Origin: Acidimicrobiales bacterium
GTDB taxonomy: Bacteria > Actinomycetota > Acidimicrobiia > Acidimicrobiales > SHLQ01
Direction: 5' to 3'
Assembly (NCBI GenBank): GCA_020628865.1
Contig: JAHDEJ010000004.1
Span: forward strand, 206,203 to 238,702
DNA: 32,500 nt
In this document: piece after piece, positions 10,312 through 29,309 of the stretch
Numbering within the stretch: position 1 is the stretch's first letter
How the letters are laid out: every line of letters starts with the position of its first letter
Made by a program: the position numbers and the translations under genes
The notes under the pieces: generated by a model
Seen by the model: the letters and a program-made list of their open reading frames with translations, nothing else
What the model was told of the DNA's origin: nothing
Databases searched by the model: none

Positions 10312-10319
10312 AGACGAAC

Positions 10320-14128: not shown

Positions 14129-14142
14129 TGTAAACGGTTACA
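14129..14142. promoter_or_regulatory. LacI-family operator 1 (upstream of GH13)
   Basis: TGTAAACGGTTACA has the arms TGTAA/TTACA and differs at one base from the ideal LacI/CcpA-type palindrome TGTAAACGTTTACA. It lies 34 bases before the GH13 start. Closely related sites occur at 16824 and 25872. The likely ligand is the LacI protein encoded at 15742. Confidence 0.8.
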
Positions 14143-14176
14143 TTCGCGTCGAGTTGCGGTACGAGGAGATGACGGC

Positions 14177-15742
14177 ATGGAGCCTGTCCAACGCTGGTGG
14201 GAACACGCCGTCGGCTACGAGATCTACATTCGCTCGTTCGCTGACGGCACCGGCGATGGGATCGGTGACTTCCCCGGGATGCTCGATCGTCTCGAGCATC
14301 TTGCATGGCTGGGCGTCGACATCATCTGGGTGACGCCGTTCTATGCGTCACCGATGCGCGACTGGGGATACGACGTTGCCGACTACACCGCAATCGATCC
14401 CACCTACGGTTCGCTCGACGACTTCGACGCCGTCGTCGCCCGGGCGCACGAGCTCGGGATGCGGGTGCTGATCGACATCGTTCCGAACCACACGAGCGAC
14501 CAACATCAGTGGTTCCGTGAAGCCCTGAAGGGCCCGGACAATCCGTACCGCGACCACTACATCTGGCGGGACGCTCCCGCCGATGGGTCCCTGCCGAACA
14601 ACTGGGTCGGCTACTTCGGCGGACCGACGTGGACGCTCGACGAAGCGAGCGGCCAGTACTACCTCCACCTCTTCCTTCCCGAACAGCCCGACCTCAACTG
14701 GCGGAACCCGGCTGTCCTCGATGCCTTCGACGACATCCTCCGCTTCTGGTTGGACCGCGGCGTCGACGGGTTCCGCGTCGACGTTGCCCAGGCGATGGTC
14801 AAGGACGCCGAGCTTCGTTCGAACCCGCAGATCGCTCCGAGCGACGAGTCGATGTTCCGGTGGGACCAATGGAACGCATTCGAGCACCGGCACGACATCC
14901 TGCAGCCGGAGAGCGTCGACATCTTTCGACGCTGGAACCGGATCGCCGAGGAGTACGACGCACTGCTGCTCGGCGAGACCTACGACCTGGTGCAGATGGA
15001 CAAGCTGGATCGACTGGTCAGTGGCGGCGACGCCATCCACGTCGGGTTCTGGTTCGGGGCCATGCACATGGAGTGGAACGCCGAGCAGATTCGAGCGGCG
15101 TTCGATCTGCCCCTCACCAACATCAGTGCGGGGCTCGGCTGGGCCCAGGACAGCCACGACGAGCATCGATCCGTCACGCGTTTCGGCGGAGGCGACCTCG
15201 GCCGTCAGCGGGCGCTGTCGTTGACGGTTCTGCTGATGGGCCTGCCCGGCCTGCCCTTCCTGTACCAGGGTCAGGAGCTCGGGCTGGAGTCTGGGGTCAT
15301 TCCGCCCGAGGCCAAGCTCGACCCGGTCGGCGACGACGACCCCAACAGCGGTCGCGACGGCACGCGTACCCCGATCCCCTGGGAACCCGGTCCCGGGATG
15401 GGGTTCACCGACGCGGCCTCCACCTGGCTGCCGTTCGGCGGTCGAACGGACGCCGACACCGTGCTCGTTCAGCGCGAGCTTCCCTCGTCCTCCCTGCATG
15501 TCCATCGTGAACTCCTCGCAGTGCGGAAGGGACTCGGCGAGATCGCGACGGAACCGCTCAAGTGGATTGCCGACGTCGCCGGCGACCTGGTCGCCTTCCG
15601 TCGTGGCGCCATCGCCTTCGTGGCGAACGTCGGCGACGAACCGACCGAACTCCCGGTTGACGGAACCGTGTTGTTCCGTTCGGGGGATGGTTCAGGCGCC
15701 ACCCTTGCAGCCGACGAGGCCGCGATCGTGCGGATCGGCTGA
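14177..15742 (+). CDS. GH13 alpha-glucosidase / oligo-1,6-glucosidase-type glycoside hydrolase
   Basis: This 521-residue cytoplasmic enzyme is a GH13 alpha-amylase-superfamily member of the alpha-glucosidase type, hydrolysing alpha-linked glucose from short oligosaccharides after uptake. It opens with WWEHAVGYEIYIRSFAD (7-23) and carries DIIWVTPFYASP, conserved region I DIVPNHTS (100-107), region II GFRVDVAQAM with nucleophile Asp202, region III LLGETYD with acid/base Glu267, and region IV SHDEHR with Asp328, where the more usual Asn-His-Asp reads Ser-His-Asp. No signal peptide is present. The ATG at 14177 follows GAGGAG by 8 bases. Its stop overlaps the LacI start by one base, so regulator and enzyme are co-translated. 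A LacI-type operator lies in its leader. The preferred linkage or substrate cannot be read from sequence. Confidence 0.93.
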   Translation: MEPVQRWWEHAVGYEIYIRSFADGTGDGIGDFPGMLDRLEHLAWLGVDIIWVTPFYASPMRDWGYDVADYTAIDPTYGSLDDFDAVVARAHELGMRVLIDIVPNHTSDQHQWFREALKGPDNPYRDHYIWRDAPADGSLPNNWVGYFGGPTWTLDEASGQYYLHLFLPEQPDLNWRNPAVLDAFDDILRFWLDRGVDGFRVDVAQAMVKDAELRSNPQIAPSDESMFRWDQWNAFEHRHDILQPESVDIFRRWNRIAEEYDALLLGETYDLVQMDKLDRLVSGGDAIHVGFWFGAMHMEWNAEQIRAAFDLPLTNISAGLGWAQDSHDEHRSVTRFGGGDLGRQRALSLTVLLMGLPGLPFLYQGQELGLESGVIPPEAKLDPVGDDDPNSGRDGTRTPIPWEPGPGMGFTDAASTWLPFGGRTDADTVLVQRELPSSSLHVHRELLAVRKGLGEIATEPLKWIADVAGDLVAFRRGAIAFVANVGDEPTELPVDGTVLFRSGDGSGATLAADEAAIVRIG

Positions 15743-16767
15743 TGCGGGCGCGCGGTCCCTCCATCGAAGACGTTGCGCTGGAAGCCGGCGTCTCGGTCGC
15801 CACGGTGTCCCGTGCGCTCCGGGGTCTGCCCAACGTGGCGGAAGCGACCCGGGCCCGCGTGGAGGAGGTCGCCGCTCGGTTGGACTACCGGGCAGATCCG
15901 AGTGCGGCCCGGTTGGCGACCGGTCGCACCCAACTGGTCGAGATCGCCACGCCGACCGTCGACGGCTGGTACTTCTCCCGCTTTCTCGCCGGTGCCATCG
16001 ACCAACTGATGAGTTCGGGCTACGAGACCATCGCCCGCCCGGTGGAGAGCCCGGAGGAGCGCGAAGAGTTCCTCGCCGACCCGACCCAGCTGAAGAAGCG
16101 CGTCGACGGCGTGATCCTCGTGGATCTGAACATTCCCGAAGACGTTGCGACCCAACTCCACGGCGCCGGCGTGAACACGGTGACCGCCGGCTTCTCGACC
16201 CAGCGGTTCCCCTCGGTGCTGATCGACGATGTTCGGGTCGGGCACCTGGCCACGTCACATCTGATCGAACTCGGTCATCGTCGGATCGGACTGATTTCCG
16301 GCGAGCCGAACCATCCGCTCGCCTTCTCGGTGCCGGGGCTGCGGCTGGCCGGATACAGCGCCGCGATGGGGGAGCACGGCCTCATGATCGACCCGCTGCT
16401 CGAGCAGTCGGGTCGGTTCACGGCCCAGGGCGGACGGATCGCCATGGAACGCCTCCTTGCGCTGCCCGACCCGCCCACCGCCGTCTTCGCCATGTCGGAT
16501 GAGATGGCCTTCGGCGCCTGGCGTGCCATCAACGATGCCGGGCTGCGTTGGCCGGACGACGTGGCCGTCGTCGGCGTCGACGACCACGAACTCGCAGAGA
16601 TGGTGGATCTCACCACGGTCCGGCTGTCGCCGCGTGCGCTCGGCGCCGCCGCAGCCCAACGATTGCTCGATCTCATCGATGGCGAATCCGTGGCCACAAC
16701 CGGCCTTGCCGCCCGGCTCGACGTGGTCGAATTGGTGCCGCGCGCGTCGACGATCGGTTCTGGCTGA
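15742..16767 (+). CDS. LacI-family transcriptional regulator
   Basis: This 341-residue repressor has a helix-turn-helix SIEDVALEAGVSVATVSRAL (7-26), hinge region about 31-60 (ADPSAARLATG) and a periplasmic-binding-protein-like sensor domain (GVILVDLN, SVLIDDVRVGHLATSHLIELG, AVFAMSDEMAFGAW, DDVAVVGVDDHELA). The recognition helix VSVATVSR is of the kind that reads TGNAAACG half-sites, which agrees with the three palindromes at 14129, 16824 and 25872. It sits between the GH13 enzyme and the sugar-binding protein, overlapping the former by one base. It most likely represses the GH13-lacI unit, the transporter, and the divergent Gfo/Idh and aldo-keto reductase units, with a sugar from the pathway as inducer. 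The inducer is unknown. Confidence 0.94.
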   Translation: MRARGPSIEDVALEAGVSVATVSRALRGLPNVAEATRARVEEVAARLDYRADPSAARLATGRTQLVEIATPTVDGWYFSRFLAGAIDQLMSSGYETIARPVESPEEREEFLADPTQLKKRVDGVILVDLNIPEDVATQLHGAGVNTVTAGFSTQRFPSVLIDDVRVGHLATSHLIELGHRRIGLISGEPNHPLAFSVPGLRLAGYSAAMGEHGLMIDPLLEQSGRFTAQGGRIAMERLLALPDPPTAVFAMSDEMAFGAWRAINDAGLRWPDDVAVVGVDDHELAEMVDLTTVRLSPRALGAAAAQRLLDLIDGESVATTGLAARLDVVELVPRASTIGSG

Positions 16768-16788
16768 GCCCAAGTTGGCTCGCGCGGT

Positions 16789-16817
16789 GTGACAACCGGC
16801 ATTCTCCGGGCTATCCT
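16789..16817 (+). promoter_or_regulatory. Putative promoter of the sugar-binding protein gene
   Basis: GTGACA (16789-16794) and TATCCT (16812-16817) have a 17-base spacer. The LacI operator starts 7 bases after the -10, at the expected transcription start, so repressor binding would block initiation. Confidence 0.55.
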
Positions 16818-16823
16818 CGCCTC

Positions 16824-16837
16824 TGCAAACGTTTACA
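16824..16837. promoter_or_regulatory. LacI-family operator 2 (upstream of the sugar-binding protein)
   Basis: TGCAAACGTTTACA is a 14-base dyad one base off a perfect palindrome. Read on the other strand it differs from operator 3 at a single base. It lies at the probable +1 of the transporter transcript. Confidence 0.82.
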
Positions 16838-16890
16838 TCGGCGTTCCAACGTGGAATGACCGGTATCCCAACCAGGAGGGGACCCCTGAG

Positions 16891-18357
16891 ATGACAAGCA
16901 AGTGGATGAAGCTTTTTGCTTCGTTGTTTGCCATTGCACTCGTGGCTGCTGCATGCAGCTCCGACGGTGGCACTGAAACCTCGACCGCCGACAGCGATGC
17001 CGCTGACGCCGCGGCCGCAAGCCTCGAAGAGGCACAGGCCCGCGCTGAGGCCGCCGAGGCTGAGGCCGCCGACGCCGAAGCTCGTGCAGAAGCTGCTGAA
17101 GCAGCCGCTGCCGAAGCTGGCGAAGGTGAAGCCATGGCAGAAGCCCGTGAGTTCGAGGGCCAGGTTGTCCGCATCACCGGCCCGGAGCGCTCCGCTGAAG
17201 AGTGGAACGCCATCGAAGCCGCAATGGTTCCCTTCGAGGAAGAGACCGGTATGGAGGTCATCTACACCGGTTCCGCCGACTGGGAAGCAGAGATCAACGT
17301 GCAGATTGCCGCTGGCAACCCGCCGGACATCTCGATCTTCCCGCAGCCCGGCAAGCTCGCCGACTTCGCCCGTGACGGCTTCGTCAACGAGCTCCCCGGC
17401 GACGTGTTCGACTCGGTGTCGGCCAACTGGTCCGACTCCAACATGGGCTTCGGCCTCGTCGACGGCGCCTTCTACGGCGTGCCGGTCAAGCAGGACCTCA
17501 AGTCCATCGTGTGGCACAAGCCCACGGTCTTCGCCGACAACGGCTACGACATCCCGCAGACCTGGGACGAGCTCAAGGAGCTCACCAACACGATGATCGC
17601 CGACGGCATCACCCCGTGGTGCGTGGGTATCGAGTCCGGCCAGGCAACCGGCTGGGTCTTCACCGACTGGACCGAGGACCTCATGCTCCGCTTCTACGGC
17701 GGCGAGGCCTACGACGAGTGGGTCGCCAACGAGCTGAAGTTCTCGGATGAGCGTGTGACCACCATCTTCCAGGAGATCCTCGATCTCTGGAACACCCCCG
17801 GCGCAGTCTTCGCCGGTGGTGGCACCATCTCCTCGACCCACTTCGCCAACGAGCCGGCTGAGGGCCTGATCAACGACGACTGCGCCATGGTGCGTCAGGC
17901 TTCGTTCTTCGCCAACTTCCTGCCCGAGGGCTCTTCGGACCAGGTCGACGTGTTCTACTTCCCGTCGATCACCGCCGAGGATCGTCCGGTCATGGGTGGC
18001 GGCAACCTCACCGGTGCGTTCAACACGAACGACGCCACGTGGGCCGTCATGACGTACATGGGCTCGCCCGAGTACGCCAACGCTCGCCAGATCGCACAGC
18101 GTGAGGCCAAGGGCGGCGGCATCTCCGGCTTCAACACCGCAAACATCAACGCCGACAGCAGCCTCTGGTCGCCGCTCGGTCAGGGCTTCGTGACCTTCCT
18201 GCAGGAGGCCGAGACCTTCCGCTTCGACGGTTCCGACCTCATGCCCGCCGATGTTGGCGCCGGCGAGTTCTGGACCCAGGCCACCAACATGGTGAACGGC
18301 GATGCCGACGTTGCGACCGCAGCGGCTGCCATCGACGCTGCTTGGCCGTCCGAGTGA
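16891..18357 (+). CDS. ABC sugar transporter, lipoprotein substrate-binding protein (alpha-glucoside AglE-like)
   Basis: This 488-residue solute-binding lipoprotein has a signal peptide with lipobox VAAAC, lipidated at Cys22. Residues about 33-87 are an Ala/Glu-rich heptad-like stretch that should form a coiled coil between the lipid anchor and the binding domain. From about residue 90 a family 1 extracellular sugar-binding fold follows: EEWNAIEAAMVPFEEETGMEV, NPPDISIFPQPGKLADFARDG, YGVPVKQDLKSIVWHK and PQTWDELKELTNTM. The pattern resembles alpha-glucoside (AglE-type) binding proteins. The ATG at 16891 follows AGGAGGGG; a GTG far upstream would lose the signal peptide. A LacI operator covers its promoter and a strong terminator follows it, so it should be made in excess over the permeases. 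The ligand may be a glucoside or a sulfosugar glycoside; the sequence alone does not say. Confidence 0.93.
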   Translation: MTSKWMKLFASLFAIALVAAACSSDGGTETSTADSDAADAAAASLEEAQARAEAAEAEAADAEARAEAAEAAAAEAGEGEAMAEAREFEGQVVRITGPERSAEEWNAIEAAMVPFEEETGMEVIYTGSADWEAEINVQIAAGNPPDISIFPQPGKLADFARDGFVNELPGDVFDSVSANWSDSNMGFGLVDGAFYGVPVKQDLKSIVWHKPTVFADNGYDIPQTWDELKELTNTMIADGITPWCVGIESGQATGWVFTDWTEDLMLRFYGGEAYDEWVANELKFSDERVTTIFQEILDLWNTPGAVFAGGGTISSTHFANEPAEGLINDDCAMVRQASFFANFLPEGSSDQVDVFYFPSITAEDRPVMGGGNLTGAFNTNDATWAVMTYMGSPEYANARQIAQREAKGGGISGFNTANINADSSLWSPLGQGFVTFLQEAETFRFDGSDLMPADVGAGEFWTQATNMVNGDADVATAAAAIDAAWPSE

Positions 18358-18401
18358 TCCAACCGCTCGCCGGGACGCCGGTGAGCTGATGTAGTACCGA
18401 G

Positions 18402-18441
18402 TCCGGGGGCAGGCGAACTGCCTGCCCCCGGATTTGTTTTT
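18402..18441 (+). terminator. Intrinsic terminator/attenuator between binding-protein and permease genes
   Basis: TCCGGGGGCAGGC (18402-18414) pairs perfectly with GCCTGCCCCCGGA (18420-18432) around the loop GAACT, a 13-bp stem, followed at once by TTTGTTTTTC. It lies 44 bases after the binding-protein stop and 35 before the permease start. Partial read-through would give more binding protein than permease, a common arrangement in sugar ABC operons. Confidence 0.9.
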
Positions 18442-18475
18442 CAACTGAGTCGCAAGCGTGGGGGGAGATGACGAC

Positions 18476-20662
18476 ATGGGTCGTCTGGGGACGTCGATTC
18501 CAGCCATCGGAGGGCTGATCGCAGCCGTCATATTCGTCGTGGTGCGTCGGGGAGAACCCGGCTCGCTCGATCTGCTCGAGTCCGTTCAGTGGCTCGCAAC
18601 AGGAGGAATTCTGTGGGGAGCGGGCCTGATGGTCCTGACCCGCGGCTCCGGGTTCCTGCGTGTGTTCTTCGGGCTCGTCCTGTTGATCGCCACATTCTTC
18701 ATCTTCCGAAGTCCCGGTTCCTTCGACCGGCTGGCGTCGACACTGCTCGTGGTGCTCATCGCCGTCGGGCTGATCGGCGGCACCTGGATCGCTGCGAACC
18801 TCATCATGAACCTGGCTCCGAAGAACTGGAGCCTCTTCACCGCCCTGACCGGGGGCACCGTCGCCGCACTGTTCTTCGGCATCCTGCGCGGCAACCGGTC
18901 GATTCTTCCGATCGTGTCGACCGGCGACCCGATCGCCTTCAACGCCGGCGGCGGGTTCCTCGGCCACATCGAGTGGCCGTTGTTCGGTGCGGTCGTCTGG
19001 GGTGGCGGCCTGTTCGTCATGCGGATGCTGCCCAGGGTTCCCCGGCTCGCCCTCGGCGTGGGCATGGGCGTCCTGACCGGGTTCATGATCGGCCAGAACG
19101 TGCAGGCCTGGCATCGAGGCTCGATCGGCCTCGTCGAGGTGATCGTGGCCACCGCAATCGGCATCGCCGTGGGCGCCGGCCTGCGGGTCATGCGCGGCTC
19201 CGATCCCATTCCGGGCGCACTGCTCGGTGCGGCTGTCGGTTGGACCATCGGGTCCTGGTTCCTGTCGCCGTTCGCCGGCAACGCCACCGATGCAACCATT
19301 GCGGCGATCGTGCCGCTGGTCCTGCTCGGGTTGCGGCTTGCCTGGAACGAGAACCCCTCCGATCGACAGCTTGCGGCATTCGACAACCGTGCACGCGCCG
19401 TCATCTTCCTCGGCCCGGCGATCCTCTTCCTCTTCTCTGCGCTGGTCGTGCCGGCGATTCGAACGATCGTCTTGTCGCTTCGCAACCGTGACTCGAGCGA
19501 GTTCGTCGGTTTCGACAACTACGTCGAGCTTTGGAACGACAGCGACTCGTTCGACTTCTCGAACTGGACGAACATGTTCACGTCGCAGCTGTTCTGGGTC
19601 GGCGCCGTGCTGCTCATCTCGGGCGTCGTCATCGGTGTGGTGTCCGGTGTCCGTCGCAACGGTGAGGCCGGCTTCGAGCGCACCGGTTCCTCGGTCGGGC
19701 CGATCCTCGTCGGCCTGTTCCTCTTCGCCTTCGCGGCATTGAGCGTCCTGCGTGGCACGTTCTTCAACAACGTGTGGTGGGTGCTCACCGTGACCACCGT
19801 GTCGGTCGGCCTCGGTCTCACGATCGCCGTGCTGGCCGAGCGGGCCGGTCGCGCCGAGGCGTTTGCCAAGTCGCTGATCTTCATGCCGATGGCGGTTTCG
19901 TTCGTCGGTGCATCGATCGTCTGGCGGCTGCAGTATCAGCCCCGCCCGGCCAACCGCACCCAGACCGGCGTGCTCAACACGGTCTGGGTCGAGCTCGGCA
20001 AACTCAGCCATTCCGGAGCGCCTCGCATCATCGTGCTCGTGGTCCTCGCCGCCATCCTGGCTTCGCTCGGCTACGGGCTCTACAAGAAGGCGATCGTCCG
20101 AGCACCGTTCACGATCAACACGATCGGCATCATCGTCTTCGGCTACCTGTTCATCGAGCTCGCTCGCCGCAGCCTCGGTGGCTTCATCCTCGGTGCCAAC
20201 GGCGAGATCGAGCCGGACATCGTGATCTTCCTGCAGGAACCGCCGTTCAACAACGTGTTCATGATGATCGTGCTCATCTGGATCCAGACCGGCTTCGCCA
20301 TGGTGATCCTGTCAGCCGCGATCAAGGCGGTGCCACAGGAGTTCATCGAGGCAGCCAAGGTCGACGGCGCGACCGAGTCTCAGACCTTCTTCCAGGTGAT
20401 CTTCCCGCAGATCCTCCCGACGGTCGGCGTGGTGACCACCACGCTCATCGTGCTCGTCACCAAGGTGTTCGACATCGTCAAGGTGACGACGGGCGGCAAC
20501 TTCGGCACGAACGTGCTCGCCAACGACATGTTCGAGGTGTCGTTCAGCTTTGCGAACTTCGGCCTCGGGTCGGCGATCGCCGTGTTCATCCTGGTGTCCG
20601 TGCTGCCGGTGATGTTCATCAATGTCAGACGAATGCAGCAGGAGAGGGTGGTGAACCGATGA
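18476..20662 (+). CDS. ABC sugar transporter permease (MalF/AglF-like) with large extra membrane regions
   Basis: This is an inner-membrane permease of 728 residues, more than twice the usual 290-330 of sugar permeases. Residues 1 to about 290 form an additional domain of roughly eight hydrophobic helices. The MalF-like core begins near 305 (RARAVIFLGPAILFLFSALV) and ends with the EAA coupling loop EAAKVDGATESQTFFQVIFP (625-644), the contact site for the ATPase. Inside the core two more helix-rich stretches, about 370-425 and 512-565, appear where typical permeases have none. The ATG at 18476 is preceded by GGGGGAGA at suitable distance; a GTG at 18458 would lie upstream of that site. Its stop overlaps the next permease start by 4 bases. 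The EAA loop is intact, so it should be functional. The role of the added helices is unknown. Confidence 0.9.
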   Translation: MGRLGTSIPAIGGLIAAVIFVVVRRGEPGSLDLLESVQWLATGGILWGAGLMVLTRGSGFLRVFFGLVLLIATFFIFRSPGSFDRLASTLLVVLIAVGLIGGTWIAANLIMNLAPKNWSLFTALTGGTVAALFFGILRGNRSILPIVSTGDPIAFNAGGGFLGHIEWPLFGAVVWGGGLFVMRMLPRVPRLALGVGMGVLTGFMIGQNVQAWHRGSIGLVEVIVATAIGIAVGAGLRVMRGSDPIPGALLGAAVGWTIGSWFLSPFAGNATDATIAAIVPLVLLGLRLAWNENPSDRQLAAFDNRARAVIFLGPAILFLFSALVVPAIRTIVLSLRNRDSSEFVGFDNYVELWNDSDSFDFSNWTNMFTSQLFWVGAVLLISGVVIGVVSGVRRNGEAGFERTGSSVGPILVGLFLFAFAALSVLRGTFFNNVWWVLTVTTVSVGLGLTIAVLAERAGRAEAFAKSLIFMPMAVSFVGASIVWRLQYQPRPANRTQTGVLNTVWVELGKLSHSGAPRIIVLVVLAAILASLGYGLYKKAIVRAPFTINTIGIIVFGYLFIELARRSLGGFILGANGEIEPDIVIFLQEPPFNNVFMMIVLIWIQTGFAMVILSAAIKAVPQEFIEAAKVDGATESQTFFQVIFPQILPTVGVVTTTLIVLVTKVFDIVKVTTGGNFGTNVLANDMFEVSFSFANFGLGSAIAVFILVSVLPVMFINVRRMQQERVVNR

Positions 20663-21609
20663 CGGCCGCAAACGTGAGTGCCGACGAGACACTCGGCCAA
20701 CGCATCTACCGAATGCTCACCAGCGTCCCGATGTGGGCGTTGTGGGGTCTCGTCCTGCTGTGGACGCTGCCGAGCTTCAGCCTGTTCGTGAACTCGTTCC
20801 GGGGTCGTTCCGACCAGCGCAACTCCGGCTTCTGGACCACGCTCGGCGACCCGGACCAGTTCACGCTCGAGAACTACCGCACCGTGCTCATCGAAGGCGG
20901 CGCAACCGACATCTCGGACTCGCTGATCAGCTCGTTCGCCATCGCGATCCCGGCGACGATCATTCCGATCGCGTTCGCGGCGTTTGCGGCGTACGGGTTC
21001 GCGTGGATCGACTTCAAGGGGCGGGAGTGGCTGTTCATCGCCACGGTGTCGTTGCTGGCCGTGCCGCTGCAGGTGGCGCTCATCCCGCTGCTGCAGACCT
21101 ACGTCGGCGGTGCGCACTTCACCGTGTGGGGGACCGAGCGAACGATCACCCTGATCCCGGATCTGGACCTCAACACCCGAGGTGGCATCTCGGTGTGGCT
21201 CACCCACACCGGGTTCGCCATGCCGTTCTCCATCTTCCTGCTGCACAACTACATCTCGGAGCTTCCGAAGGAGGTGTTCGAGTCCGCCCGGATCGATGGT
21301 GCCAGCCACTTCACGATCTTCTGGCGTCTCGTCCTGCCGCTTTCGGTTCCGGCGCTGGCTGCGTTCGCGATCTTTCAGTTCCTGTGGACCTGGAACGACT
21401 TCCTGATCGCGGTGACGATGCTGTCGGGCGGCAACCCGGCCGACCTTCCGACCACAGTGCTCATCGCCAACCTTGCCGGCGACTTCGGCCGGACCGAGCA
21501 TCTGCTCACGGCCGGGGCGTTCGTGCAATCGTTCGTGCCGCTCGTGGTCTTCTTCAGTCTGCAGCGGTACTTCGTGCGAGGCCTGCTCGCCGGCTCCGTC
21601 AAGGGCTGA
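20659..21609 (+). CDS. ABC sugar transporter permease (MalG/AglG-like)
   Basis: This 316-residue permease has the usual six-helix layout of carbohydrate (CUT1) importers. The first helix is about 24-45, and the EAA loop is ESARIDGASHFTIFWRLVLP (208-227), preceded by FAMPFSIFLLHNYISELPKEVF. A loop of about 30 residues (150-180, AHFTVWGTERTITLIPDLDL) is somewhat longer than typical. It starts at the ATG overlapping the upstream permease stop (ATGA), with AGGAGAGGG just before, so the pair is co-translated and should form the heterodimeric channel with it. No ATP-binding subunit follows; as in other actinobacteria a shared MsiK/UgpC-type ATPase encoded elsewhere is expected. Confidence 0.95.
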   Translation: MTAANVSADETLGQRIYRMLTSVPMWALWGLVLLWTLPSFSLFVNSFRGRSDQRNSGFWTTLGDPDQFTLENYRTVLIEGGATDISDSLISSFAIAIPATIIPIAFAAFAAYGFAWIDFKGREWLFIATVSLLAVPLQVALIPLLQTYVGGAHFTVWGTERTITLIPDLDLNTRGGISVWLTHTGFAMPFSIFLLHNYISELPKEVFESARIDGASHFTIFWRLVLPLSVPALAAFAIFQFLWTWNDFLIAVTMLSGGNPADLPTTVLIANLAGDFGRTEHLLTAGAFVQSFVPLVVFFSLQRYFVRGLLAGSVKG

Positions 21610-21616
21610 CGCGGCG

Positions 21617-23361: not shown

Positions 23362-23379
23362 GACGGCCGGCGGGCCCGG

Positions 23380-24612
23380 TCAGTCGGTCTCGACGTCGTC
23401 GGGAAGGGATCCGGAGGCGAGCTCGGCGAGCCAGTCGATGAACAGCACGCCGTCGACCTCCTCGGTGTAGACCCGCGGGCTCATCAGGATCGTGTGTTGA
23501 TCGCCAGCGGTACGGAAGCTGGCGATCGGCCGGCTGGCTTCCTCGATCTGGTCTTCGTTGCCGTCCATCAGACCGGGAAGGTCCGAATTGTCGACTCCGG
23601 TCAGCGCAAGGAAGGTCGTCTGGACGTTGTCGTATGCGTCGTCGAAGCGCCCGATGACAATGTCGGGATTGTGGTTCGCCGTCCGGAACACGAGGCCGGG
23701 AAGGCTGTAGTCGGCGGCGGTCACGCCGTCGTACTCGGGCCAGTCCGGCGCCATTCCCGGCGCACCCCAGGTGCCGCCGAGCTGTTCGTTGAGGTCGGGG
23801 ATGTCCGGGTACGCGCCGGAAGCGTCACCGAAGGACACGACACTCGCGTTGGGCATGGCGTCGGCGAGCACGCCGGCGTAGAGCGGTGCGGGGATGGAAC
23901 CGGCGCTCATGCCGGTGACGAAGAGTTCGCTCGTGTCGCCGAGGTTCTCGACGACCCAGTCCATGGCGGCGCCAGCGTTGACTGCGCCCCGGTGCTGGAT
24001 CACGACGTCCTCGCCGTAGGTGACCTCGGCGTTGCCGAGGTGGACGTCTCCGGTGCAGTAGGGGACGAACACGATCGTGTGGTCGGCGAACGGGTTGTCC
24101 GGATTCGAGCGGTCGAAGATGCCGCCGATTGCCCCGAGGTCGAGGGCGTCGTAGCCCTCACGAGTGTCGGACACGGTCTGTTTGTACGGGGCCAGCGCGC
24201 CATTGGGGTCGCAGGTCAGCTCGTTCCAGCAGGCGCCACCACCCTCGAAGAGCACCATCGTCTTCTCGCTGGACGCCCGACTCACGTAGAAGTTCCATGG
24301 GCTGCCGTCGGAGCATTGACACTCGTCCTCGCCCGGCCCGGCGATGTGGTCGACCTTGGTCCATCCCTCGCCGAGTTCGGTCTCGGCATAGCCGGCCTCA
24401 GGTGCATCCGCCTCGTCGGGGGCTTCGGTCGTGGTCGTCGTTTCGGGCTCCGCCTCGGTGGAGGCGGTGGTCGTCTCTGCCACCGTGGTTGCGGGTGCAG
24501 CCGTGGTGGTGTCGGCTGTGTCGTCGGTCGTTGTCGACGTGCTGGAGCATGCTCCGGCGACCAGCAGCAGAGCAGTGGACAGGGAAACGAGACGGCCGTG
24601 AAGCGAGCGCAT
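23380..24612 (-). CDS. Pectinacetylesterase (PAE/Notum) family lipoprotein
   Basis: This 410-residue exported alpha/beta-hydrolase of the pectinacetylesterase/Notum family deacetylates polysaccharides or other esters. The signal peptide ends in VAGAC, giving a lipidated Cys22, and a Thr/Glu-rich linker (about 24-72) holds the enzyme off the membrane. The domain shows MVLFEGGGACWN (119-130), a substrate-cavity block VPYCTGDVHLG (183-193), the nucleophile elbow VTGMSAGS with Ser236, and His373 in AGDQHTI; Asp324 or Asp325 is a candidate third triad member. Six or more cysteines are spaced as for disulfides. It starts at the ATG at 24612 and is convergent with the LLM gene. Placement amid sugar uptake genes suggests it helps release or deacetylate an algal or plant glycan, but it has no LacI operator. 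Confidence 0.9.
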   Translation of the reverse strand: MRSLHGRLVSLSTALLLVAGACSSTSTTTDDTADTTTAAPATTVAETTTASTEAEPETTTTTEAPDEADAPEAGYAETELGEGWTKVDHIAGPGEDECQCSDGSPWNFYVSRASSEKTMVLFEGGGACWNELTCDPNGALAPYKQTVSDTREGYDALDLGAIGGIFDRSNPDNPFADHTIVFVPYCTGDVHLGNAEVTYGEDVVIQHRGAVNAGAAMDWVVENLGDTSELFVTGMSAGSIPAPLYAGVLADAMPNASVVSFGDASGAYPDIPDLNEQLGGTWGAPGMAPDWPEYDGVTAADYSLPGLVFRTANHNPDIVIGRFDDAYDNVQTTFLALTGVDNSDLPGLMDGNEDQIEEASRPIASFRTAGDQHTILMSPRVYTEEVDGVLFIDWLAELASGSLPDDVETD

Positions 24613-24650
24613 CCACCGACCCTAGTGCCCACCGTCAGCGCGGATCCCGT

Positions 24651-24675
24651 CACAATGGGGTCTGACCCCATTGTG
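24651..24675. repeat. Extragenic palindrome with 12-base arms
   Basis: CACAATGGGGTC (24651-24662), one T, and GACCCCATTGTG (24664-24675) form a perfect dyad in the gap between two minus-strand genes. The core GGGGTC-N-GACCCC resembles dispersed extragenic palindromes that I recall from many bacterial genomes. It is too tight for an RNA hairpin at its centre and has no T-tract, so a terminator role is possible but not favoured. Confidence 0.75.
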
Positions 24676-24712
24676 AGCATGCACGCGCGGACGGTGGTTT
24701 TCGTACCTGGTA

Positions 24713-24723
24713 CCGATGTGGGG
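24713..24723. repeat. Extragenic palindrome GTACC-T-GGTAC
   Basis: An 11-base perfect dyad related to the GGTRCC-N-GGYACC palindromes at 7543-7670. It lies 19 bases before the end of the Gfo/Idh gene, much as the copy at 7658 lies just before the end of the flavoenzyme gene. Confidence 0.5.
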
Positions 24724-24742
24724 GAGTGCGCGCGGAGGGTGG

Positions 24743-25828
24743 CTAGTTGGGGAGGAGTTCGTCGAGGCGGACCGGGCGGTTTTCGGCGATGGAGCGGTGC
24801 GCGGCCTCGCCGATTGCGACCGCCAGCCGGCCGTCCTGCAGAGTCACGCCGGCTTCCGAGCCGCTGCGAATGGCCTGCGCGAAGTCGACGTGCTCCAGGT
24901 AGCTCGAGCCGTGGTGGAGGCCCTCGTAGCGGATCTCGTCGTTGACGATGTGACGCGTCTCCACCTTGCCGATGTCGGGCAGGCCCTCGCCGCTGCGGAT
25001 GCCCACGTGCAGTTCGCTCGACGGCACGCGGGCATCGAGCTTCCCGAGCTCGCCCACAACGGACAGCTCCTCCTGGTCCTTCGTGGCCTCGGCGAACATG
25101 CAGAGGTCGAGCATGGCGCGGGCGCCACCCTCGTACTCCACGACGACGAATGCGTTGTCGAGAATGTCGGACTGCTCGCCGTCGTAGACCTCGTCCAGGT
25201 GATTCACGTCCTGGTTGCCGGAGGCGTAGACCTGAACCGGCTTGCGCTGGATGATCAGGTTCATCAGATCGAAGTAGTGGCACGTCTTCTCGACGAGGGT
25301 GCCGCCGGTGTTCCGGGTGAACCGGTTCCAGTCGCCGACCTTCACCAGGAACGGGAACCGATGCTCGCGGATCGCCACCATCTTCACCTCGCCGACGGTG
25401 CCCTTGTGGACCTCGTCGATGAGCGCCTGGACGGCAGGCATGTAGCGGTATTCGAGGCCGACCCAGACCACGCCGGGGTAGCCCTCTGCGAGCTCGATCA
25501 GCGTGGTGCACTCTTCGGTGGTGATGCACAACGGCTTCTCGCACAGCACGTGCTTGCCGCTGGCGAGCACGTCCTTCATGACATCGATGTGGGTGAAGTT
25601 CGGGGTGACGACGACGACCGCGTCGACGTCGTCATCGGCGAGGAGGTCCCGATAGTCGGTGTAGACGGCGGTGCCGGGTCCTGCGGCCGCAAGACCCTGG
25701 TCCCGTGAGGTGGGGTCCGTGTCGGCGATGGCGGTGACGCTGGTGTCGTCGAGGGCGAGAATGTTGCCGATGTGCTCGATGCCCATCATGCCGGTGCCGA
25801 TCACGCCGTAGCGAAGGTGGGTGCTCAT
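24743..25828 (-). CDS. Gfo/Idh/MocA-family NAD(P)-dependent oxidoreductase (candidate NAD-dependent glycosidase)
   Basis: This 361-residue protein has an N-terminal Rossmann domain (YGVIGTGMMG, 7-16), the family signature CEKPL (96-100) and a C-terminal sugar-binding domain with REHRFPFLVKVGDWNRF (154-170) and NTGGTLVEKTCHYFDLMN (173-190), where His184 is the likely catalytic histidine. Family members oxidise sugars or inositols at C1-C3; some use transient NAD oxidation to cleave glycosides (GH109, and GH188 sulfoquinovosidases). ATG at 25828 with AGGATGA upstream. It is divergent from the aldo-keto reductase, SsuD-like and GH1 genes across a LacI operator, so it is likely co-regulated with them. 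A glycosidase role (sulfoquinovoside cleavage) is inference from neighbours; an ordinary sugar dehydrogenase is the main alternative. Confidence 0.9.
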   Translation of the reverse strand: MSTHLRYGVIGTGMMGIEHIGNILALDDTSVTAIADTDPTSRDQGLAAAGPGTAVYTDYRDLLADDDVDAVVVVTPNFTHIDVMKDVLASGKHVLCEKPLCITTEECTTLIELAEGYPGVVWVGLEYRYMPAVQALIDEVHKGTVGEVKMVAIREHRFPFLVKVGDWNRFTRNTGGTLVEKTCHYFDLMNLIIQRKPVQVYASGNQDVNHLDEVYDGEQSDILDNAFVVVEYEGGARAMLDLCMFAEATKDQEELSVVGELGKLDARVPSSELHVGIRSGEGLPDIGKVETRHIVNDEIRYEGLHHGSSYLEHVDFAQAIRSGSEAGVTLQDGRLAVAIGEAAHRSIAENRPVRLDELLPN

Positions 25829-25871
25829 TCAGATCATCCTAGTGGAGACAGAGTTGTTGATTTAACTTGAA

Positions 25872-25885
25872 TGTAAACGCTTGCA
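25872..25885. promoter_or_regulatory. LacI-family operator 3 (between Gfo/Idh and aldo-keto reductase genes)
   Basis: TGTAAACGCTTGCA lies in the 91-base divergent gap and overlaps the probable -35 of the aldo-keto reductase. It differs by one base from the reverse complement of operator 2. One site here could control both directions. Confidence 0.82.
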
Positions 25886-25911
25886 ATGTGGTCGTCCAAC
25901 CGCGCTACTGT
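25881..25911 (+). promoter_or_regulatory. Putative leaderless promoter of the aldo-keto reductase gene
   Basis: TTGCAA (25881-25886), a 19-base spacer and TACTGT (25906-25911) end 8 bases before the ATG at 25920, and no ribosome binding site is present, so the transcript probably begins at the start codon. The -35 overlaps the LacI operator. The 19-base spacer is longer than ideal. Confidence 0.45.
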
Positions 25912-25919
25912 GGTCGTTC

Positions 25920-26828
25920 ATGACCACGAATCTCGTCTCCTCCTCTCCCCGTCGGCTGGGAACGGACGGTCCTGAAGTTGGCGCCCTCGGCTACGGCACC
26001 TGGCGCATGACTTCAACGGACGTCAGTACGAACCAGCGCCTGATCGAGACCGCCCTCGACAGCGGCATCAATCTGATCGACACCGCAGACGTCTACGGCC
26101 TCGATCACGGTGGCACCGGCTTCGGTGAGAACGAGGAGCGACTGGGCCAGGTTCTGGCCGCTGCGCCCTCGCTGCGCGACCGGATGGTGCTCGCCACCAA
26201 GGGCGGCATCATGCCGCCGCTGCCGTACGACAGCAGCCCCGACTACCTGCGATCGGCCGTCGACGCATCGCTCACCCGCCTCGGCGTCGAGCACATCGAC
26301 CTCTGGCAGATCCATCGCCCCGACATGTTCACCCACCCGGCCGATGTTGCGGCGACGCTCGGCGAGCTGCACGCCGCCGGCAAGATCGGCATGGTCGGCA
26401 TCTCCAACTTCACCGTCGACCAGTACGACGCCCTGGCCCATCACCTCACGCTGCCGATCGTCGCCACGCAGCCGGAGTACTCCGTTGGCCAGCTCGCCCC
26501 GCTGCGCGACGGCATGTTCGACCGGGCCATGCGCGACGGCATGGTGCCGCTTGCCTGGAGCCCGTTGGCCGGCGGTCGCCTGCTCAGCGGCGAGGGAATG
26601 CGGAACGAGCTGCTCGACACGGTCGATCGACTGGCCGAGCGGGAAGGAACGGACCGGGCCACGATCGCCATCGCGTTCGTGCTCGCCCATCCGTCTCAGC
26701 CAGTGGCGCTGCTCGGCACGCAGACCCCCGAGCGCCTCGTCGCTTCGCTCAAGGCGTTCGACGTGACGCTCGATCGAAACGACGTGTACGACATCGTCGC
26801 CGCCAGCGAGGGACAGCCGCTTCCGTAG
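25920..26828 (+). CDS. Aldo-keto reductase (SmoB-like candidate)
   Basis: This 302-residue NAD(P)H-dependent aldo-keto reductase has the complete catalytic tetrad: Asp54 and Tyr59 (LIDTADVYG), Lys94 (LATKGG) and His132 (WQIHRPD). The barrel continues with GMVGISNFTVDQYD and IVATQPEYSVGQ, and the cofactor-end motif LLGTQTPERLVASL. It reduces an aldehyde or ketone, or oxidises the alcohol. It is the first gene of a three-gene unit with the SsuD-like monooxygenase (35 bases downstream) and GH1 glycosidase. In the sulfo-ASMO pathway an aldo-keto reductase (SmoB) reduces 6-oxo-glucose, formed by the SsuD-like SmoC, to glucose, and this arrangement fits. That role is inference; the family is certain. 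The ATG at 25920 lacks a ribosome binding site and is probably leaderless. Confidence 0.92.
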   Translation: MTTNLVSSSPRRLGTDGPEVGALGYGTWRMTSTDVSTNQRLIETALDSGINLIDTADVYGLDHGGTGFGENEERLGQVLAAAPSLRDRMVLATKGGIMPPLPYDSSPDYLRSAVDASLTRLGVEHIDLWQIHRPDMFTHPADVAATLGELHAAGKIGMVGISNFTVDQYDALAHHLTLPIVATQPEYSVGQLAPLRDGMFDRAMRDGMVPLAWSPLAGGRLLSGEGMRNELLDTVDRLAEREGTDRATIAIAFVLAHPSQPVALLGTQTPERLVASLKAFDVTLDRNDVYDIVAASEGQPLP

Positions 26829-26862
26829 CGGCCGTTCACCACTCAGAGGAAAGGACCTCTCC

Positions 26863-27975
26863 ATGACTGCTGTCGATTCGCAGGAAACCTCGCCGGGCCC
26901 GGTCGAGATCTCCTGGTTCGGTGCCCTGTGCGACGACGATTACGAGTTTCTCGGTGTTCCAGAGGATCACCTGAAGAGCTCGTGGCCGCACTGCTCGAAC
27001 ATCGTGAAGACGGCCGACCGGCTCGGCTACGACAACGTGCTCCTGCCGTCGGGCTACGACCTCGGCATGGACTCGACCTCGTTCGCCGCCGCCATCGCCA
27101 CCTGCACCGAACAGATCCAGCTGCTGCTCGCCGTTCGGATGGGCGAGATGTGGCTGCCCCAGCTGGCCCGCCAGCTCGCCACCATCGACCAGATGGCGAA
27201 CGGGCGTCTCACCATCAACATCATCTCGAGCGACATCCCGGGCGCACCGCTGGAGAGCGAGCCCCGCTACCAGCGCACCCGGGAATGGATGACCGTGCTG
27301 CGGGCACTGCTCAACGGCGAGTCCATCGACTTCCATGGTGAGTTCGTCGATCTGGTCGTCGATCCGCCTCGGATGCGCACGGTGTCCGGCCACTGCCCGC
27401 CGTTCTACTTCGGTGGCTTCAGCCCGGCGGCGAAGGACACCGCGGCAGAACATGCTGACGTGTTTCTGACCTGGCCCGACAAGGTCGCATCGGTCGGCGA
27501 GACCGTGCAGGAGATGGCTGCGATGGCGGCCGGCTACGACCGGACGCTCAAGTACGGGCTGCGAGCCCACGTCATCGTCCGCGAGACCGAAGCCGAGGCC
27601 CGGGCAGCGGCAACCCGTCTGCTCTCGAAGCTCGATGACGATCAGGGAGAGAAGATCCGTCAGAAGAGCCTCGACACCGCCTCGGCCGGCGTCGCCCGTC
27701 AGAACGCCCTGCGTGAAGCGGCCGAGGACGACGGCTTCGTCGAGGAGAACCTCTGGACCGGTGTCGGCCGGGCGCGCAGCGGCGCGGGTGCTGCAATCGT
27801 TGGCGACCCCGATCAAGTCCTCGCCAAGCTTCAGGCCTATCGTGCCGTTGGCGTCGGTGCGTTCATTCTCTCCGGCTACACCCATGCGGCCGAGGCGGAC
27901 CTGTTCGCCAAGCACGTGCTGCCCAACATCGAACACGGTCCGCTCTACGAGGGCTCCACCACCGTTCCCGGCTGA
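26863..27975 (+). CDS. SsuD-like FMNH2-dependent sulfonate monooxygenase (candidate sulfosugar/SmoC-type)
   Basis: This 370-residue luciferase-like protein resembles alkanesulfonate monooxygenase SsuD along its whole length: ADRLGYDNVLLPSGYD (51-66), RYQRTREWMTVLRALLNGE, FYFGGFSPAAKDTAAEHADVFLTW (181-204), GLRAHVIVRETEAEA (232-246), ENLWTGVGRARSGAGAAIVG and AFILSGYTHAAEADLF. The SsuD active-site residues Trp196, Arg226, His228, Arg297, Tyr331 and His333 map to Trp204, Arg234, His236, Arg305, Tyr339 and His341. SsuD Cys54 is not conserved: the RSCED segment reads YDLGMD. Such enzymes use reduced flavin and oxygen to cleave a C-S bond, giving an aldehyde and sulfite. Lying between an aldo-keto reductase and a GH1 glycosidase, its substrate is probably a sulfosugar. 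No flavin reductase is encoded nearby. ATG 26863 follows AGAGGAAAGGA. Confidence 0.88.
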   Translation: MTAVDSQETSPGPVEISWFGALCDDDYEFLGVPEDHLKSSWPHCSNIVKTADRLGYDNVLLPSGYDLGMDSTSFAAAIATCTEQIQLLLAVRMGEMWLPQLARQLATIDQMANGRLTINIISSDIPGAPLESEPRYQRTREWMTVLRALLNGESIDFHGEFVDLVVDPPRMRTVSGHCPPFYFGGFSPAAKDTAAEHADVFLTWPDKVASVGETVQEMAAMAAGYDRTLKYGLRAHVIVRETEAEARAAATRLLSKLDDDQGEKIRQKSLDTASAGVARQNALREAAEDDGFVEENLWTGVGRARSGAGAAIVGDPDQVLAKLQAYRAVGVGAFILSGYTHAAEADLFAKHVLPNIEHGPLYEGSTTVPG

Positions 27976-27986
27976 CGAGGACATCA

Positions 27987-29309
27987 ATGACCGACACCAT
28001 CGACTTCGGATCGGACTTCTTCTTCGGTTCGGCCACGTCTTCGTTCCAGATCGAGGGACGGTCGGACGCGATTCCGCAGGGTGAATCCATCTGGGACACC
28101 TTTTGCGCCGAGCCCGGGCGGATCGCCGACGGTTCGAACGGACTCGTTGCCTGCGACCACGTGCATCGTTGGGCGGAGGACGTGCAGCTCATGTCCGACC
28201 TCAACCTGGACAAGTACCGATTCTCCGTCGCCTGGCCCAAGGTGATCCCGACCGGCACTGGTGCCGCGAGCGCTCCGGGTCTCGACTTCTACGATCGACT
28301 GGTCGACGAGCTGCTGGGCAAGGGCATCGAGCCGATGCTCACGCTGTACCACTGGGATCTTCCCCAGGCGCTCGACGACGTCGGCGGCTGGCTGAACCGA
28401 GACACGGCGTATGCCTTCGCCGACTACGCGCAGGTGGTCCTCGATCGCCTCGGCGATCGGGTGTCGACGTGGACGACCTTCAACGAGCCGTACGTTTCGG
28501 CGGGCCTCGGCTACGTGACCGGCGAACATGCCCCCGGCCATCGGAACCTGCGCGAAGGCCTCACCGCAGCGCATCACATCCTCTTGGCGCACGGCTTGGG
28601 CATGGAGCGGATTCGGGCCACCGTTCCGGACTCCGATGCGGGCATCGTGCTCAACTTCACGCCGGTCGAGCCGGCCTCGGACGCTCCCGCAGATGTCGCG
28701 GTGGCTGCGGCGCGGCAGGGGTGGGAGAACGAGTGGTATGCCGGCCCGATCTTTCACGGCGCCTACCCGGAAGCGACGGTCGAAGCGCTGGGCTGGGACC
28801 AGTCCGAGGTGCAGGACGGGGATCTGGCGCTCATCTCGGCACCGGTCGACGTGCTCGGCGTCAACTTCTACACGCGGTCGGTCGTTTCGAGTGTGGGTCA
28901 GCAGATTCCGTTCGGCACGCCACGAACCGAGATGGGTTGGGAGATCCATGCGCCGTCGCTCAAGCGCCTGTTGCTCTGGCTGCACGAGACCTACACCCCC
29001 GCCAAGATCGTGATCACCGAGAACGGCTGTGCGATGCCCGACACCGAACGGGTCGACGGGGTCGTGGACGATCAGGATCGCATCGACTACCTGCGCAACC
29101 ATCTGACGATGGTCCACGAGGCTCGGGAGGCCGGAGCGCCGATCGCCGGCTACATGGTGTGGTCGCTCATGGACAATTTCGAGTGGGCGCTCGGCTACGA
29201 GAAGCGATTCGGCATCGTCGAAATCGAGGCCGACACCCTCCGCCGGATCCCGAAGGCCAGCGCTCGATGGTTCGCCGAGCTTGCGAAAACCGGGGTGCTT
29301 CCGGGCTGA
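27987..29309 (+). CDS. GH1 beta-glucosidase-type glycoside hydrolase
   Basis: This 440-residue GH1 retaining glycosidase has the acid/base motif TFNEP with Glu167 and the nucleophile motif ITENG with Glu345. Other family marks are FFFGSATSSFQIEG (11-24, slightly unlike the more common GAATAxYQIEG), DKYRFSVAWPKVIP, LTLYHWDLPQAL and GYMVWSLMDNFEWALGYEKRFG. It has no signal peptide, so it works in the cytoplasm on imported beta-glycosides or their modified forms. The ATG at 27987 follows GAGGAC and lies 11 bases after the SsuD-like stop, so it is the last gene of that unit. It releases glucose or a related hexose for glycolysis. Whether it acts on a beta-glucoside or a sulfonated or 6-modified glucoside cannot be told; aglycone and C6-site residues would need comparison. 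Confidence 0.94.
   Translation: MTDTIDFGSDFFFGSATSSFQIEGRSDAIPQGESIWDTFCAEPGRIADGSNGLVACDHVHRWAEDVQLMSDLNLDKYRFSVAWPKVIPTGTGAASAPGLDFYDRLVDELLGKGIEPMLTLYHWDLPQALDDVGGWLNRDTAYAFADYAQVVLDRLGDRVSTWTTFNEPYVSAGLGYVTGEHAPGHRNLREGLTAAHHILLAHGLGMERIRATVPDSDAGIVLNFTPVEPASDAPADVAVAAARQGWENEWYAGPIFHGAYPEATVEALGWDQSEVQDGDLALISAPVDVLGVNFYTRSVVSSVGQQIPFGTPRTEMGWEIHAPSLKRLLLWLHETYTPAKIVITENGCAMPDTERVDGVVDDQDRIDYLRNHLTMVHEAREAGAPIAGYMVWSLMDNFEWALGYEKRFGIVEIEADTLRRIPKASARWFAELAKTGVLPG

Follow-up and report, generated by a model that had tools for sequence, protein, structure and literature searches.

A probable LacI-controlled sulfoquinovose monooxygenase cassette with a GH188-type sulfoquinovosidase in a genome of the Acidimicrobiales

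Production of the plant sulfosugar sulfoquinovose has been estimated at 10 billion tons per year, according to the available sections of PMC10755693. One route for its catabolism, the sulfoquinovose monooxygenase pathway (sulfo-SMO, also named sulfo-ASMO), is known from Agrobacterium tumefaciens (SmoABC) and Novosphingobium aromaticivorans (SquD/SquF); a SmoC/SquD-type monooxygenase and an aldo-keto reductase (AKR) are what these systems have in common with the locus reported here. Excerpts of two reviews, one of them PMC9594981, attribute the monooxygenase route mainly or largely to Alpha- and Betaproteobacteria, and a 2026 survey (PMC13372026, main-text portions) reports sulfo-SMO clusters to be frequent in Actinomycetota at the level of the phylum. 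In the sections of PMC10755693 at hand, the SqgA proteins are described as NAD+-dependent sulfoquinovosidases of glycoside hydrolase (GH) family 188, with their contact residues named, and GH188 is found in sulfo-SMO clusters, being near-universal in the Roseobacter ones. In this work we analyzed a stretch of 32,500 nucleotides (the window) from an Acidimicrobiales bacterium (assembly GCA_020628865.1, contig JAHDEJ010000004.1, positions 206203-238702, reaching the contig end), and we argue from its sequence that it very probably carries a LacI-controlled sulfo-SMO cassette for sulfoquinovosyl glycerol or sulfoquinovose.

A preliminary description of the window had listed a Gfo/Idh-family gene, an AKR gene, an SsuD-like monooxygenase gene and a GH1 glycosidase gene, with a sugar importer and a LacI regulator nearby, and had proposed oxidative sulfoquinovose catabolism by the SmoC/SmoB route. 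The four genes are intact and placed as described, according to the open reading frames (ORFs), their translations and Pfam and NCBIfam scans; 34 bases separate the AKR and monooxygenase genes and 11 bases the monooxygenase and GH1 genes, and these three look like a single operon, with the Gfo/Idh gene divergent from it. The regulator and the importer are also present upstream of the core genes, where a GH13 frame (14045-15742) is followed by the LacI gene (15742-16767) and by a sugar ATP-binding cassette (ABC) importer extending to 21609, and the cassette is larger than the four genes, reaching from 14129 to 29309. The proposed route is supported by the monooxygenase tree together with the evidence on the GH188 and AKR proteins.

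When compared with solved structures, the monooxygenase reached 356 bits against 7oh2 and 345 against 7olf, with the SsuD-type 7jv3 and 1nqk at 224 and 213 bits; its identity is 50.0% to 7oh2, 48.2% to 7olf and 36.9% to Escherichia coli SsuD. We take 7oh2 and 7olf to be SmoC sulfoquinovose monooxygenases, their PDB labels reading alkanesulfonate monooxygenase / methanesulfonate sulfonatase. A tree of 64 rows separated 50 rows of a SmoC/SquD side, this monooxygenase among them, from 14 rows of an SsuD side with a support of 100/100; long branches join at this fork and the exact position of the root is unsure. Inside the SmoC/SquD side a set of 27 rows, Actinomycetota or unlabelled relatives plus one contig labelled Deltaproteobacteria, was supported by 96/96, and the same set with two more actinobacterial rows by 96/99, the nearest outside sequences being from Sphingomonadales and Rhizobium. 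The gene is the sole one of its kind in the host genome, the next match being 30% identical over half the length.

The preliminary description had stated that the active-site residues of SsuD are retained except for Cys54, and the alignment bears this out: the equivalents of Asn106, Trp196, Arg226, His228, Arg297, Tyr331 and His333, which together with His11 we take to be SsuD active-site residues, are retained, Cys54 of E. coli SsuD aligns with Leu67, and His11 falls in an unaligned stretch. Because 7oh2 also has another residue in place of Cys54 (Val), as it does in place of His11 (Cys), the loss of Cys54 is best seen as a trait of the SmoC-type family. The notion that the protein is an SsuD-type alkanesulfonate sulfur scavenger standing by chance in a sugar locus could draw on its best NCBIfam model, TIGR03565 (alkanesulfonate monooxygenase, SsuD), yet the score of 269 bits is far below the cut-off of 518. 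Moreover, the phylogeny against SsuD, a check suggested at the outset, sets the protein outside the SsuD side at the support given above, its partners are a SmoB-like AKR and a GH188 protein, and another genome of the same taxonomic order (G035) has a separate SsuD, 54% identical to that of E. coli. SsuD membership was therefore rejected on the tree and on the TIGR03565 score, and a chance placement seems to us hardly credible; the assignment as a putative SmoC/SquD-type sulfoquinovose monooxygenase holds.

Some relatives of the monooxygenase deserve a separate mention. The contig labelled Deltaproteobacteria (L045) carries a 78% identical protein nested in Acidimicrobiia sequences, a case of either transfer or mis-binning. 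On a plasmid of Rhizobium sp. WSM4643 a relative of 62.6% identity lies beside LacI and ABC importer genes, with no annotated AKR and with an L-arabinonate dehydratase gene near it, perhaps pointing to another sulfonated substrate. A Bacteroidota branch occurs on plasmids of Spirosoma (L128) and Emticicia (L138), in one case near amidohydrolase and soxC-annotated sulfite dehydrogenase genes, in the other near a GH95 gene.

The entry enzyme of the cassette was recognized in the Gfo/Idh protein, whose best solved relatives were 8qc3 (342 bits), 8qc2 (340 bits) and 8zn9 (312 bits), the next one scoring 108 bits. Both 8qc3 and 8qc2 are SqgA proteins according to the sections of PMC10755693 consulted, and the identity to ArSqgA is 46.4%. 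Of the nine contact residues, eight are in register with the solved chain, and each of these is retained here: the sulfonate-binding Arg166, Leu170 and Lys172 (ArSqgA numbering) as R157, L161 and K163, and the catalytic or contact residues Lys107, Tyr136, Glu189, His193 and His321 as K98, Y127, E180, H184 and H305. The ninth, Glu163 of the paper, appears from the alignments to be one residue out of register (Val in the chain, Arg here), with a Glu next to it in both proteins. In 35 clustered relatives, drawn from a set of 80 monooxygenase loci (65 outside Alphaproteobacteria and 15 alphaproteobacterial), the contact residues are also kept, except that the Leu170 position holds Leu in 31 of them and Gln in the other 4. 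On this comparison the Gfo/Idh protein is a predicted GH188-type NAD+-dependent sulfoquinovosidase and the entry glycosidase of the cassette.

Because GH188 supplies the entry enzyme, no unusual sulfonated substrate is needed. Two suggestions of the preliminary description are thus not supported: a replacement of a GH31 sulfoquinovosidase by GH1 and GH13, and an action of the cassette on some other sulfonated glycoside. The Gfo/Idh gene already belongs to the GH188 sulfoquinovosidase family, a known sulfo-SMO partner (PMC10755693, in the sections cited). It was right that there is no GH31 sulfoquinovosidase locally, none being found among the annotated genes of the window. We also considered a sphingomonad-like GH31 sulfoquinovosidase encoded elsewhere in the genome, a candidate that was rejected: a search with one sphingomonad query, which distant GH31 forms could escape, gave no YihQ-type GH31 at E 1e-60 in any of 395 Acidimicrobiia genomes from 183 genera, the host included, and found two of two sphingomonads used as control.

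The AKR is a predicted SmoB/SquF-like enzyme, with 7bbz and 7bby, which we take to be SmoB, as best solved relatives (136 bits) and YdhF at 121 bits; the AKR tetrad motifs are present. It is 46.3-47.8% identical to three sphingomonad AKRs, the highest value corresponding to Novosphingobium pentaromativorans, where the gene lies beside GH31 and luciferase-like monooxygenase (LLM) genes, and the clusters of these sphingomonads hold either a YihQ-like GH31 alpha-glucosidase (L125) or a Gfo/Idh gene (L137, L139). The assignment rests mainly on gene position, since an AKR gene is near the monooxygenase in 63 of the 65 loci outside Alphaproteobacteria and in all 15 alphaproteobacterial ones. The putative SmoB and SmoC genes are adjacent, and the portions of PMC13372026 available define a sulfo-SMO cluster by these two genes lying inside a window of 10 ORFs.

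Co-occurrence in the class sample was assessed with thresholds of E <=1e-60 for the monooxygenase, a few matches of which are only 37-48% identical or partial, and E <=1e-50 for GH188. The monooxygenase was found in 81 of the 395 genomes, GH188 in 122 and both in 74, which means that GH188 accompanies 74 of 81 monooxygenase genomes versus 48 of the 314 others. These counts ignore kinship, an effect just softened by repeating them by genus: 45 of the 183 genera have the monooxygenase, 67 GH188 and 43 both (43/45 versus 24/138 genera without the monooxygenase). Both genes lie at most 5 kb apart in 52 of the 74 genomes.

Alphaproteobacterial relatives of the monooxygenase lend independent support, as 11 of the 15 loci share the order TonB receptor, GH31, LacI, AKR, monooxygenase. 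The GH31 proteins of the sphingomonad clusters are 42-47% identical to E. coli YihQ, which is annotated as a sulfoquinovosidase, and the one that was scanned reached 863 bits with NCBIfam PRK10426 (cut-off 553). Arg301, Trp304, Tyr508 and Gln288 are, we assume, the sulfoquinovose contacts of YihQ; all 11 cluster GH31 proteins and that of N. pentaromativorans keep the first three, and each of the 12 has Glu in place of Gln288. Genes for glycerol kinase and glycerol-3-phosphate dehydrogenase are also present in the N. pentaromativorans cluster, and four Acidimicrobiia loci have a GlpD-like gene after the cassette; glycerol genes of this kind would be expected if the substrate were sulfoquinovosyl glycerol.

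The units of the cassette are joined by a palindrome. In the gap between the GH188 and AKR genes, TGTAAACGCTTGCA resembles LacI-family operators. The pattern TGNAANCGNTTNCA was built after this site at 25872 had been seen, the other two sites being the independent ones; it has three exact matches in the window, where 0.02 are expected, and these are the only three in the whole 5.36-Mb genome, all upstream of cassette units. The operator at 14129 (TGTAAACGGTTACA) precedes the GH13 ATG at 14177 by 34 bases, and that at 16824 (TGCAAACGTTTACA) precedes the binding-protein ATG at 16891 by 53 bases; the AKR start was assigned to the ATG at 25920 because the alternative TTG at 25881 falls within the operator. 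Since the palindrome precedes each unit, the GH13 gene, the importer, GH188 and the AKR-monooxygenase-GH1 operon would be one regulon in this lineage, and the LacI protein at 15742 is presumably its regulator.

A genome of the same genus (G368) displays the order GH13, LacI, binding protein, two permeases, dehydratase-like gene, GH188, AKR, monooxygenase, GH1, and the stretches read from it have three sites at the same three places, including L130:7592 for GH13. On the importer side, L042-L044 have sites at the binding-protein gene and L130 has one between LacI and the binding protein; sites in the GH188/AKR gap occur at the matching place in L041-L044, L051, L130 and others. Of the 46 sites in the 80 related loci, 31 fall at the starts of cassette genes, regions that make up 7.0% of the sequence.

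These results bear on another view of the window, in which an alpha-glucoside operon (GH13-LacI-importer) and a separate GH188-AKR-SmoC unit are unrelated neighbours. Threonine-dehydratase-like, second luciferase-family and pectinacetylesterase-like genes do intervene between both groups; nevertheless, the same palindrome is upstream of all three units and nowhere else in 5.36 Mb, it recurs at the same places in G368, and the last two of the intervening genes have no match in the G368 locus. Furthermore, the importer family is found with GH188 also where the genome has no SmoC, and in Ilumatobacter loci showing no GH13 the importer is in line with AKR-SmoC, as in the named, isolate-type record of Ilumatobacter nonamiensis (L078), where the monooxygenase is present and no GH188 was seen in the stretch examined. 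We regard two unrelated neighbours as very improbable, and favor a single sulfo-SMO regulon.

The importer was followed across genomes in the same manner. Of the 65 loci outside Alphaproteobacteria, 36 have the first permease near the monooxygenase and 36 the second, 29 have the binding protein, 22 LacI and 15 GH13; for the subset of 30 loci whose sequence extends 8 kb or more to either side, the corresponding numbers are 21 (each permease), 21, 14 and 11. The binding-protein family was delimited as near full-length matches of at least 48% identity, down to E 3.5e-118, with rows below 48% uncounted and three shorter matches of 53-55% (G207, G335 and G315, all GH188 genomes) omitted; so defined, it is present in 53 of the 395 genomes, 47 of which carry GH188. 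Among these 53 genomes 27 are without the monooxygenase, and 23 of the 27 carry GH188; the binding protein lies within 15 kb of GH188 in 24 genomes, 14 of these without the monooxygenase. The importer thus tracks the sulfoquinovosidase and not the monooxygenase, and therefore sulfoquinovosyl glycerol or sulfoquinovose is its likely cargo. The predicted fold of the binding protein (mean predicted local distance difference test score, pLDDT, of 86) is of a general sugar-binding type, nearest to AcbH among the 50 best of 1,627 fold matches, and points to no particular ligand. SmoF was not named among 17 PDB sequence matches or among those 50 best fold matches, no direct comparison with SmoF having been made.

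GH188 loci devoid of the monooxygenase were also inspected, 20 of them, chosen by us from the 48 such genomes. An SftI-like isomerase gene is beside GH188 in eight (L167, L169, L170, L175-L177, L185 and L186), mostly with the same importer, a YihV-like kinase was found in four and a YihT-like aldolase in three; the one isomerase-like protein scanned scored 261 bits with NCBIfam NF048012, below the cut-off of 700. The GH188-isomerase loci of Acidimicrobiia are the counterpart of this cassette of the sulfoglycolytic Embden-Meyerhof-Parnas (sulfo-EMP) type, as sketched in the part of PMC11465081 available. No competing sulfo-EMP route was seen in the host, since a sulfoquinovose-isomerase-like query had no match in its genome (E limit 1e-10).

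As for GH13 and GH1, both belong to the cassette by operator and operon position. The preliminary description was correct in counting GH13 as part of the cassette, with which it shares the operator set, and its role as a GH31 substitute is not needed; as a substitute sulfoquinovosidase GH13 is not favored, because among the 80 loci it is mostly found alongside GH188, not in its place. The best solved relatives of GH13 are the alpha-glucosidase structures 3wy1-3wy4 (364-366 bits), and GH1 has canonical GH1 motifs and passed the beta-glucosidase model TIGR03356 (574.5 bits, cut-off 478.5). Both enzymes may liberate glucose from glucosides taken up through the same importer.

The position of GH1 in the operon and the operator before GH13 could also suggest that a different sulfosugar or sulfonated glycoside (e.g. 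galacto-configured or an oligosaccharide) is degraded, the actual entry glycosidases being GH1 and GH13; related sugars might be accepted by GH188 and SmoC-type enzymes, and six of the 20 GH188 loci without SmoC have both GH13 and GH1. On the other hand, the mapped sulfoquinovose contacts of GH188 are all kept, the alphaproteobacterial monooxygenase relatives adjoin YihQ-like GH31, and GH1, with its ordinary beta-glucosidase motifs, is missing from 64 of the 65 comparable SmoC loci, the exception being the same-genus one. We judge this explanation to be improbable, in favor of sulfoquinovosyl glycerol or sulfoquinovose as the substrate.

GH1 was found in 7 of the 20 loci without SmoC, once (L175) without GH13, and the six loci with GH13, GH1 and GH188 (L168, L171-L174 and L178) are all from one family, f50, with the same importer in five of them. 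Their genomes gave no SmoC at E 1e-60, and the sole isomerase match is distant (26-32%) and elsewhere in the genome. A wider function for the regulon is conceivable, if rather unlikely, namely the salvage, under one LacI regulator, of glycerol-linked sugars shed by photosynthetic cells. A single importer would then take up several glycosylglycerols, and sulfoquinovosyl glycerol would be cleaved by GH188, alpha-glucosylglycerol by GH13 (which could instead be a third kind of sulfoquinovosidase) and beta-galactosyl or beta-glucosyl glycerol by GH1. If this broad salvage were true, the f50 family would use a sulfoquinovose route not yet described.

From family membership, active-site residues, gene order, co-occurrence and the three-site palindrome we infer the reactions, the importer ligand, the regulator with its effector and the source of reduced flavin. 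The glycoside would be taken up by the ABC importer (16891-21609), with an ATPase encoded elsewhere, and the GH188 enzyme would free sulfoquinovose via a transient NAD+ oxidation at C3. The SmoC-type monooxygenase, supplied with reduced flavin mononucleotide (FMNH2) by a flavin reductase from a distant gene, would then remove sulfite to give 6-dehydroglucose, which the AKR would reduce to glucose. It had been pointed out before that no flavin reductase is adjacent, and none is among the annotated genes of the window; a look for one elsewhere in the genome, also proposed there, gave three PF01613 candidates, none of them near the cassette. A cytochrome b561 and molybdopterin oxidoreductase pair (10302-11857) was tried as sulfite oxidase of the cassette and rejected, as it gave a weak 50-bit match to a sulfite-oxidase fold; the pair is situated 15 kb from the sulfite-producing gene and was not matched in the stretches of G368 that surround its cassette.

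Several points speak against a sulfo-SMO cassette as proposed. GH188 was not found in seven of the 81 genomes with the monooxygenase, and among the 74 that have both there are 22 in which the distance exceeds 5 kb or cannot be read, the genes being on different draft contigs in 21 and 1.6 Mb apart on one contig in 1. Flavin reductase, sulfite oxidase and sulfite exporter were not recognized in the cassette, and the best host PF01613 protein is just 29.4% identical to the flavin reductase of the Ruegeria cluster. Neither was an ATPase gene, which is nearby in 33 of the 80 loci and has relatives of 65-68% identity elsewhere in the host genome, and the binding protein is not recognizable as SmoF. 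The AKR is only 36.1% identical to 7bbz, with a score little above that of YdhF, and the tree carries a long-branch warning, two SsuD-side rows exceeding 2 changes per column. Regarding the palindrome, its genome-wide number equals chance (3 versus ~3.3 expected, 2 in the backward control), with just the clustering being remarkable; a cassette-gene site is present in just 21 of the 80 loci, and no site occurs in 19 of the 20 GH188 loci devoid of SmoC. Lastly, the host genome is a 5.36-Mb draft in 113 contigs, 95.9% complete and 3.0% contaminated.

Table 1. Predicted features of the cassette (window positions).
Feature	Position	Strand	Basis
LacI-type operator TGTAAACGGTTACA	14129..14142	none	Upstream of GH13 gene; exact match to TGNAANCGNTTNCA
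GH13 alpha-glucosidase-type enzyme	14177..15742	+	Pfam Alpha-amylase, 341.5 bits; start set downstream of operator
LacI-family regulator, presumed local cassette regulator	15742..16767	+	NCBIfam LacI-type matches
LacI-type operator TGCAAACGTTTACA	16824..16837	none	Upstream of importer
Importer solute-binding lipoprotein	16891..18357	+	Conserved together with GH188; predicted sugar-binding fold
ABC permease with long N-terminal extension	18458..20662	+	Pfam BPD_transp_1 at residues 529-722 of 734
Second ABC permease	20659..21609	+	Pfam BPD_transp_1 in frame 19774-21609; start taken from translation
Putative GH188-type NAD+-dependent sulfoquinovosidase, Gfo/Idh fold	24743..25828	-	8qc3/8qc2/8zn9 relatives; kept contact residues
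LacI-type operator TGTAAACGCTTGCA	25872..25885	none	Within divergent GH188/AKR promoter region
Putative SmoB/SquF-like AKR (6-dehydroglucose reductase)	25920..26828	+	7bbz/7bby best solved relatives
Putative SmoC/SquD-type FMNH2-dependent sulfoquinovose monooxygenase	26863..27975	+	Structure matches; tree
GH1 beta-glucosidase-type enzyme, third gene of AKR-SmoC operon, lineage-specific accessory	27987..29309	+	TIGR03356

The first of the three genes between importer and GH188 in the window belongs to a group of pyridoxal phosphate-dependent threonine dehydratase-/synthase-like genes (window 21473-22540; L169:4675-5919) that adjoin the importer in the window, in its nearest relatives and in some sulfo-EMP-type loci. 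Clustered relatives of the long first permease span 519-891 amino acids, some of them clipped by contig ends.

The pathway is known, and so is its presence in the phylum. In the open-licence literature we found no paper on sulfoquinovose in Ilumatobacter, the match for Acidimicrobiia with sulfoquinovose being a study of biosolid-amended soil, and no Acidimicrobiia title with GH188; sulfoquinovose monooxygenase together with Actinomycetota was found solely in PMC13372026, whose main text has no words beginning with Acidimicrob or Ilumatobacter. An Acidimicrobiia cassette with GH188, an importer and an operator-defined regulon including GH13 and GH1 was not found described in that literature. 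The window thus places a putatively complete sulfo-SMO core, with glycosidase, importer and operator set, in Acidimicrobiia, where the route is hardly described; the importer and the palindrome offer simple markers, and the presence of GH13 and GH1 in the regulon raises the concrete question of what else is taken up.

Compared through reviews with the sulfo-SMO systems of Agrobacterium and Novosphingobium, the cassette has GH188 instead of GH31, an importer not recognizably of the SmoF type, a GH13 gene with its own operator, a GH1 gene in the operon and an actinobacterial host. The sphingomonad relatives likewise have a LacI-type regulator, and N. aromaticivorans, in the excerpt of PMC9594981, is reported to lack a local flavin reductase, of which none was recognized in this cassette either. 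With the GH188 SqgA proteins of PMC10755693 it shares the eight in-register contacts, and the pairing with sulfo-SMO is described in the sections of that paper available. The Roseobacter-type cluster of Ruegeria sp. TM1040 (L126) also holds a Gfo/Idh gene (47.2% identical), an LLM monooxygenase (49.7% identical) and an AKR together, and differs by its GntR regulator, local flavin reductase and tripartite ATP-independent periplasmic (TRAP) transporter. Finally, the actinobacterial sulfo-EMP-like clusters, as sketched in the part of PMC11465081 available, have in common with this locus GH188 beside ABC importer genes, but they cleave a C-C bond, whereas the cassette described here would cleave the C-S bond.

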